Assembly: GCA_030649165.1 (NCBI GenBank)
Contig: JAUSGG010000056.1
Coordinates: 23,273 to 87,272 of the forward strand
Direction: 5' to 3'
Length of the DNA stretch: 64,000 nucleotides
DNA from: Armatimonadota bacterium
Lineage (GTDB): Bacteria; Armatimonadota; UBA5829; JAUSEB01
The translations under genes were made by a program, and so were the position numbers. The notes under the pieces are model-generated. The model was given only the letters and a program-made list of their open reading frames with translations. It ran no database searches and was not told the origin of the DNA. Shown in pieces: positions 23,427 through 24,179 of the stretch. The first letter of the stretch is position 1. The number at the start of each line of letters is the position of its first letter.

Positions 23427-24002
23427 TCAGACGTCTCCCGCTTTTGCCCAGCGGGTTCCGGGATAGCGCTCGGCCACCTGGTCCCAGTACTCGCCGAGGT
23501 ACTTGCCGTCGCCGGTAGCCCGGTACTTGGCCACGCCGACCATATAGAGGGCTTCGGGCGCGGCAAGCGAGTCGGGAAGCTCGCTCACGATATGCTCGTA
23601 ACGCGCGACTGCCTCTTCGTAGCGTTTATTGTCAAATGCCTCCTGAGCCAGTCCTATGTAGAGATCGGCCAGAAAATCGTCAGGGAAAGCATAACCGACC
23701 TGCCGCCTGTGTTCGCGGCCTTCGGCGTCGAGGAAGAAGATCGCGGGGGTCCACCGCTGGAGGAACCTGTCCGTAAACTCCGGATGCTCGACCACGTTGA
23801 TTTGCACGGGAAGGAAGTTTTCGTTGATCAGTCTCGCCACTCGCTCATCGGGGTACGTCACGGCACCCATTTTCTTGCAGCCGCCTCAGCCGGGGTTGAA
23901 GAAGTCCAAAAGGACCAGCTTCCCCGTCTCCTTCGCCTTAACGAGGGCCTCATCGAGCGAGCGCGTCCATAGCCCTTGCGCGGGCATGGTCTCAATAGCC
24001 AT
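23427..24002 (-). CDS. Candidate selenoprotein: thioredoxin-fold protein with in-frame TGA at the first active-site Cys, plus C-terminal TPR-like helices
   Basis: Read from ATG 24002 (AGGAGAGAG 6-12 nt upstream) the frame is open for 191 residues except for one TGA at 23888-23886. Around it the protein reads LVLLDFFNPG-U-GGCKKMGAVTYPD, so U39 falls on the first Cys of a thioredoxin CxxC motif and C42 on the second. Similarity continues on both sides: D-F two strands earlier, KKM after, VARLINENFLPVQINV, cis-Pro in RWTPAIFFLD. Residues 105-190 form helical repeats (AQEAFDNKRYEEAVARYEHIV). A hairpin with a loop G lies at the bacterial SECIS distance. Without Sec insertion only a 38-residue stub or a motif-less fragment would be made. 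A sequencing error in a Cys/Trp codon is the main alternative. Confidence 0.8.
23851..23868 (-). promoter_or_regulatory. Putative bacterial SECIS hairpin
   Basis: On the minus strand, 17 nt after the in-frame TGA: GGGTGC-CGTGAC-GTACCC, a 6-bp stem (one G-U pair) and a 6-nt loop whose second base is G. The loop starts 24 nt after the TGA, inside the 16-37 nt window known for SelB-dependent bacterial SECIS elements, which need an exposed G near the start of the loop. Confidence 0.55.
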
Positions 24003-24179
24003 CTGTTCTCTCTCCTATGACAGTCTCGTGCATGGAAAGGTATTGTTCATCGTGTAGTTACCCGCCGGAACCGGTCATCAATCCGTGGATGATTGCGGGC
24101 AAAGGGTTCGGGGAAGGAGTTATTCGACGGACGCCGAACATTGACTGGTATGCCCGTCGGGCTACGAGAGAGGAGACAC

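Follow-up and report, generated by a model that had tools for sequence, protein, structure and literature searches.

The question raised by the stretch of DNA analysed here, 64,000 nucleotides of contig JAUSGG010000056.1 of an Armatimonadota bacterium (hereafter the window), is whether a TGA codon that interrupts a gene for a thioredoxin-fold protein is a stop or, as the original prediction had it, a codon for selenocysteine (Sec) at the position of the first redox cysteine. Comparison with related genes indicates that the gene very likely makes a Sec-containing thioredoxin-like protein, because both the TGA and a hairpin downstream of it are kept in relatives that are labelled, in their records, as members of several phyla. 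The proposed location (23427..24002) is borne out, and the strand, which had not been stated, is found to be the minus one, the frame running from the ATG at 24002 to 23427 and being interrupted solely by the TGA at 23888-23886 (residue 39). The features on which the argument turns are:

23427..24002, minus strand: gene for a thioredoxin-fold protein with a part resembling tetratricopeptide repeats (TPR), 191 residues, with one in-frame TGA predicted to be read through, as indicated by the frame and by homologues that continue through the TGA
24008..24016, minus strand: ribosome-binding-site-like AGGAGAGAG, purine-rich, preceding the ATG at 24002
23886..23888, minus strand: TGA codon, predicted Sec39, first redox position of U-G-G-C, from the TGA column in relatives and the Cys found there in Cys relatives
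23877..23879, minus strand: Cys42, the putative resolving cysteine of the UxxC motif, from the sequence and from the Cys in 77/77 TGA-bearing genes
23851..23868, minus strand: hairpin GGGUGC-CGUGAC-GUACCC resembling a Sec insertion sequence (SECIS), with a C-G loop pair around GU, from folding, pair counts and a published model

A stretch resembling the anticipated ribosome-binding site does precede the start, and protein homology was found on both sides of the TGA, with homologues running continuously through a codon flanked by the residues F-F-N-P-G-U-G-G-C-K-K-M. As had also been noted, TGA is an ordinary stop elsewhere in the window, where it closes seven of the 33 non-overlapping open reading frames of at least 250 codons; the terminal stop of the gene itself (23429-23427) is also a TGA. 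The invariance of Cys42 should be read with the way in which the 77 genes were gathered, since 28 of them were found by a pattern requiring C or S at that position and five by one requiring C.

The hairpin has the form originally described, namely 6 bp and a loop, CGUGAC, with a G, starting 17 nt past the TGA. Folded alone it yields -8.8 kcal/mol (z between -2.2 and -2.3), and the 50-nt stretch taken in full shows no gain in stability over its shuffles (z +0.66). The bacterial SECIS (bSECIS) model, as set out in the relevant part of PMC13188914, asks for a loop of 3-9 nt, a stem of 4-16 bp, a minimum free energy of -7.5 or lower, a G within the first two loop bases at 16-37 nt from the UGA, and a loop pair N1-N2 around G[G/U]N. 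The hairpin of the window has a 6-nt loop with G as the second base, at 23 nt, a 6-bp stem, an energy of -8.8 kcal/mol and a loop pair around GU that agrees with the N1-N2 requirement. A scan of the SECIS stretch against Rfam gave nothing above the gathering scores and two chance-level matches.

The hairpin was compared across the 77 distinct TGA-bearing genes, which include the window gene and were assembled from 44 + 5 + 28 genes after two duplicates had been dropped. With pairs numbered from the T of the TGA as 0 (20-37, 21-36, 22-35, 23-34, 24-33 and 25-32, plus the loop pair 26-29), 512 of 539 pair cells are formed, as compared with a mean of 459 and a maximum of 474 when the letters of the 3' side are shuffled, and with only 110 to 319 when the pairing partners are slid. 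Covariation across the hairpin extends, in the genes of the family, from silent bases to bases that alter the amino acid. Among the 38 genes that encode Gly-Ala-Val-Thr in this region, Gly is always GGT and Thr always ACG, choices that account for 14% and 25%, respectively, of these residues elsewhere in the same genes, and the third bases of the Ala and Val codons pair in 38/38 (A-U 13, G-U 12, C-G 12, G-C 1) against an expectation of 41% from codon use. Across all 77 genes pair 22-35 is G-C in 37, A-U in 30, G-U in six and unpaired in four, the change from Gly to Asp being accompanied by a silent change from TAC to TAT, and pair 23-34 is U-A in 68, A-U in three, G-U in one, U-G in one and unpaired in four, with all four genes that have Phe TTT carrying Glu. 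The SECIS pairs fix synonymous codons and seem to impose coupled replacements of amino acids. When the SECIS residues are left out of the tree, the independent pairs agree in every informative case.

The expected Cys/Sec column at residue 39 is present in homologues, with TGA in the loci of a genome scan and Cys in relatives. The scan of named genomes, which did not select for TGA, returned 39 loci whose record titles point to Deltaproteobacteria, Nitrospirae, Chloroflexi, Gemmatimonadetes, Bacillota, Actinobacteria and Armatimonadetes and mostly carry labels of metagenome-assembled genomes; 38 have TGA at the column, the remaining one (L090) is a DsbD-like Cys protein, and none of the 39 has TAA or TAG there. 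It is these relatives that speak against a chance placement of the TGA. The nine best matches in 151 Armatimonadota genomes (at least 92 bits, the window gene included) comprise seven with TGA, one with Cys (L026) and one with neither (L024). SelB scores above the cut-off in five of the six other Sec-bearing genomes of this phylum and is not found above it in the Cys genome G045. In the phylum of a Geobacteraceae metagenome-assembled genome, 85 of 395 genomes gave matches at E <=1e-12; of the 91 matches that reach 85 bits, 80 have one TGA and 11 none, the latter consisting of three CxxC, six CxxS and two proteins with neither motif, and eight weaker rows (68 bits or less) have no TGA, one of them having TAG. 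On another, unrooted tree, which includes the SECIS residues and does not contain the Cys clade discussed next, the 13 non-Sec rows require at least five changes, four of which are forced by well-supported branches. A clade of nine non-Sec relatives (L123-L131), mostly CxxS or Cys-less at the site, was also observed and is possibly a monothiol or redox-dead branch.

A natural control is provided by the family of genome G468, which includes several loci named Geobacteraceae. The gene is carried by 39 of its 48 genomes, 19 with TGA and 20 without; 15 of the latter genes were fetched, and all 14 that could be parsed have Cys at the column. The hairpin is intact in the 11 Sec genes fetched, of the Geobacteraceae type (77/77 pair cells, mean folding energy -10.0 kcal/mol), versus 52/98 pair cells and -5.8 kcal/mol in 14 close Cys relatives. 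SelA is present in all 20 non-TGA genomes of this family, so that the decay of the hairpin presumably follows from the absence of the Sec codon and not from loss of the use of Sec by the organism, and loss of the Sec machinery is not needed for the change to Cys. The idea that Cys is tied to loss of the machinery holds only in part, namely in a wider sample of 75 of the 85 matching genomes, in which SelA is missing from 4/9 genomes without the TGA and from 3/65 with it (Fisher p 0.003, with no correction for kinship; G396 left out because of a partial match). Among the other ten genomes, examined separately, G159 is without SelA.

All four genes of the Sec pathway that had been proposed for a search, selA, selB, selC and selD, were found in the source genome (5.48 Mb in 266 contigs, completeness 99.27). 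Together with the hairpin that agrees with the SECIS model, the Sec/Cys column and the continuous homologues, they support the selenocysteine interpretation. The SelD of this genome (L048, G000:C27:23111-24040) scores above the selD model cut-off and has one in-frame TGA inside the match, and it is therefore likely to be itself a selenoprotein.

The protein would be made of two parts, which, with a third conserved element, map as follows:

23652..23981, minus strand: thioredoxin-fold domain, DsbD-gamma-like, residues 8-117, according to Pfam, AlphaFold and Foldseek
23745..23753, minus strand: W84-T85-P86, with P86 invariant and W84 and T85 nearly invariant in alignment A3
23439..23669, minus strand: TPR-like helical tail, residues 112-188, from TPR_6, AlphaFold and matches to YbgF, CpoB and designed TPR proteins

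In Pfam, residues 12-112 match thioredoxin families, with PF13098 scoring 45.1 bits over a cut-off of 27 when C is written for Sec; W84-T85-P86 would correspond to the cis-proline loop typical of thioredoxin folds. The AlphaFold prediction consists of a DsbD-gamma-like thioredoxin domain followed by a short TPR-like tail, and the VIA-align and Foldseek evidence mainly concerns residues 8-121. Both the fold and the readout by SelB are predictions, and a sequence of events can be proposed in which the hairpin, 17 nt past the UGA, would recruit SelB with Sec-tRNA, and the UGA at 23888-23886 would then be read as selenocysteine. The product would be a disulfide reductase of the thioredoxin fold, presumably cytosolic, in which Sec39 would attack and Cys42 resolve. 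By analogy with the CnoX chaperedoxins, the likely task of the tail is to hold client or partner proteins. As a whole, the explanation of the gene as encoding a SECIS-directed Sec39 thioredoxin-fold reductase with a TPR-like tail that would hold clients is considered highly probable.

A number of observations weigh against it. At least two of the seven pairs are broken in eight of the 77 genes; on inspection five of these (L021, L023, L025, L133 and L136) agree with a displaced hairpin whose loop has GG, but L069, L020 and L022 fit neither hairpin well, and L020 has Glu with TAT, which breaks pair 23-34. The independent pairs on the tree are fewer than six, with tests above 0.05, and kinship weakens the pair counts. 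As to the machinery, SelA was not found in 2/38 TGA-bearing genomes of one set nor in the three of 65 of the wider one, TGA-bearing G095 has just a fragment of SelB, which at 143.9 bits does not reach the cut-off, and L024 (G150, Armatimonadota) is without both redox residues (NPTLVGSRYM) and yet its genome has two SelB matches above the cut-off. The tRNA-Sec match in the source genome is weaker than its E-value suggests, because the model passes the gathering score at a second place (48.5 bits) and also does so in 5/14 control genomes. The TPR_6 match of the tail (E 5.5e-4, 20.8 bits) is under the Pfam cut-off of 26.3, and 39 gene contexts (flanks of up to 6 kb, or 8 kb in the case of the window) revealed no conserved neighbour supporting a function.

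The simplest rival takes the UGA as a true stop, with a 147-residue product starting at Met45 and the upstream 38 codons unused or acting as a leader. Database annotation would favour it, in that 89 of the best 120 of 157 matches do not include the N-terminal region, 57 of them beginning at Met45. It is nevertheless very improbable, since no TAA or TAG takes the place of TGA in the 39 scan loci, the frame continues in the Cys relatives, conservation of the N-terminal residues goes together with variation of their codons, and in nine of the 77 TGA-bearing genes the presumed start is not a Met; the 77 genes do not by themselves test the choice of stop, because they were collected as TGA-bearing. 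Even less credence can be given to a reading of UGA as tryptophan, or to chance near-cognate readthrough. Three database proteins among the same best 120 matches (P0003, P0066 and P0067) do show W at the column, probably because the gene caller used a code in which TGA is W, but against this stand the use of TGA as a stop in the window, the Sec genes of the genome, the decay of the hairpin where Cys replaces Sec, and the fetched non-TGA relatives, which have Cys or other residues, and no Trp, at the column. The 28 other full-length proteins among these 120 matches have CxxC (16), CxxS (nine) or other residues (three).

A much more serious contender, although it falls somewhat short of an even chance, accepts the selenoprotein and assigns it to the plain thiol-disulfide reductase or peroxidase type, with the tail serving as a dimerization or stability element without clients. 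The top structural matches, which are the DsbD gamma domain and thioredoxins, the shortness of the tail and its resemblance to generic TPRs, and the want of conserved functional partners in the contexts surveyed all speak for this view. Against it, the conservation of the tail reaches the C-terminal W185, and proteins that combine thioredoxin and TPR parts, such as CnoX, act as chaperedoxins according to the portion of PMC6282202 that deals with them.

The family, with its C-terminal TPR-like part, had been regarded as one not known as an established selenoprotein. This needs correction, in that the family is probably the already catalogued 'thiol:disulfide interchange protein' and not a new one. 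Such a Sec protein is listed for 'Geobacter uraniumreducens', G. metallireducens and Syntrophus aciditrophicus in a 2006 table that counts three sequences of it (the tabulated part of PMC1794560), and Table 1 of a 2026 review gives the family as PF13098, UxxC, with WP_011366075.1 as representative (PMC13188914). The window protein shares with it the best Pfam match, PF13098, the UxxC motif (TGA39-G-G-C42) and an occurrence of the family in Deltaproteobacteria, a likeness by description and not letter by letter with WP_011366075.1. The gene is also carried by G605, which is probably Geobacter uraniireducens Rf4 and where it is alone among the PF13098 matches above the cut-off in having an in-frame TGA, a weaker match with TGA being a thioredoxin with WUPHC. 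The passages of PMC13188914 and PMC1794560 that describe the family make no mention of a TPR-like tail or of Armatimonadota, and the terms TPR, tetratricopeptide and Armatimonad are absent from the main text of PMC13188914 in the form available. What is added here is the Armatimonadota member, the breadth of the family, the TPR-like tail and the coupling between codons and residues that the RNA imposes. No NCBIfam model scores above its cut-off for the window protein, nor for another eight proteins that include L029, a member of a separate group; the thioredoxin-like selenoproteins TsoB, VPGUxxT and Trx7/PDZ give weak partial matches, with scores far below the curated cut-offs, and their architectures differ.

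Among proteins of known structure, the DsbD gamma domain (2fwe, 1vrs, 1uc7) gives the best matches, together with thioredoxins, but the window protein has a predicted Sec for the first Cys and a TPR-like tail, no signal peptide evident on inspection, and, with its 191 residues, no fusion to the membrane or alpha domains of DsbD; the DsbD model matches only through its C-terminal part, at 41.7 bits versus a cut-off of 330. The predicted fold recalls the CnoX/YbbN chaperedoxins (3qou), in which a thioredoxin domain is followed by TPR-type helices, but the tail of the window protein is shorter and its motif contains the predicted Sec. The domain arrangement appears to differ, with TMq 0.42 and rmsd 11.7 for 3qou, which at Foldseek rank 8 aligns over 182 columns with 11% identity. 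Full-length Cys relatives of approximately 200 residues (P0111, P0113 and P0114), presumably from Bacteroidota given the genus names Chitinophaga, Sphingobacterium and Pedobacter, have Cys at the column in a CKGCKKM-type motif and no Sec.

Most of the closest database relatives are truncated entries, named 'TPR repeat' or hypothetical protein, in which the predicted catalytic residue is missing, so that a selenoenzyme of wide distribution can easily escape notice. The family is an unusually clean case of a sequence under the demands of protein and RNA at once, and the constraint is looser in close relatives that have Cys but retain SelA; the cost and loss of Sec thereby become directly testable in laboratory Geobacter species. 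A bolder proposal, tentative and on balance unlikely, is that of a 'seleno-chaperedoxin', a widespread cytosolic thioredoxin-TPR selenoenzyme that would bind and rescue oxidized clients in anaerobes, and in which the residues after the active site (M-G/D/E-A-V-T-Y/F-P) would be largely dictated by the SECIS, and less by the needs of the protein, and drift free once Sec is replaced by Cys.

As for the surroundings of the gene, a response regulator is the most frequent neighbouring cluster, and it was rejected as a conserved neighbour because it occurs in only 9/39 contexts, and there neither its distance nor its strand is constant. SelA did not appear in these contexts, but in six of the 19 Sec-bearing genomes of the family of G468 (G468, G580, G576, G179, G167 and G175) the gene and selA are 3.6-7.4 kb apart, whereas none of the 20 genomes without the TGA has selA within 10 kb of the gene (Fisher p 0.008, not corrected for kinship); the genes between the two in G468 look unrelated on inspection. 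Finally, in six other Armatimonadota genes a thioredoxin motif opens with an in-frame TGA in place of its first redox residue (for example DFYTDWUGWCKRL, TDTUPSC and ADWUAVC), namely L029:1501-2064 (G003), L037:1501-1953 (G044), L171 (G013), L173 (G144), L172 (G004) and L174 (G055); they are likely to form a separate group of thioredoxin selenoproteins, some of them with apparent signal peptides.
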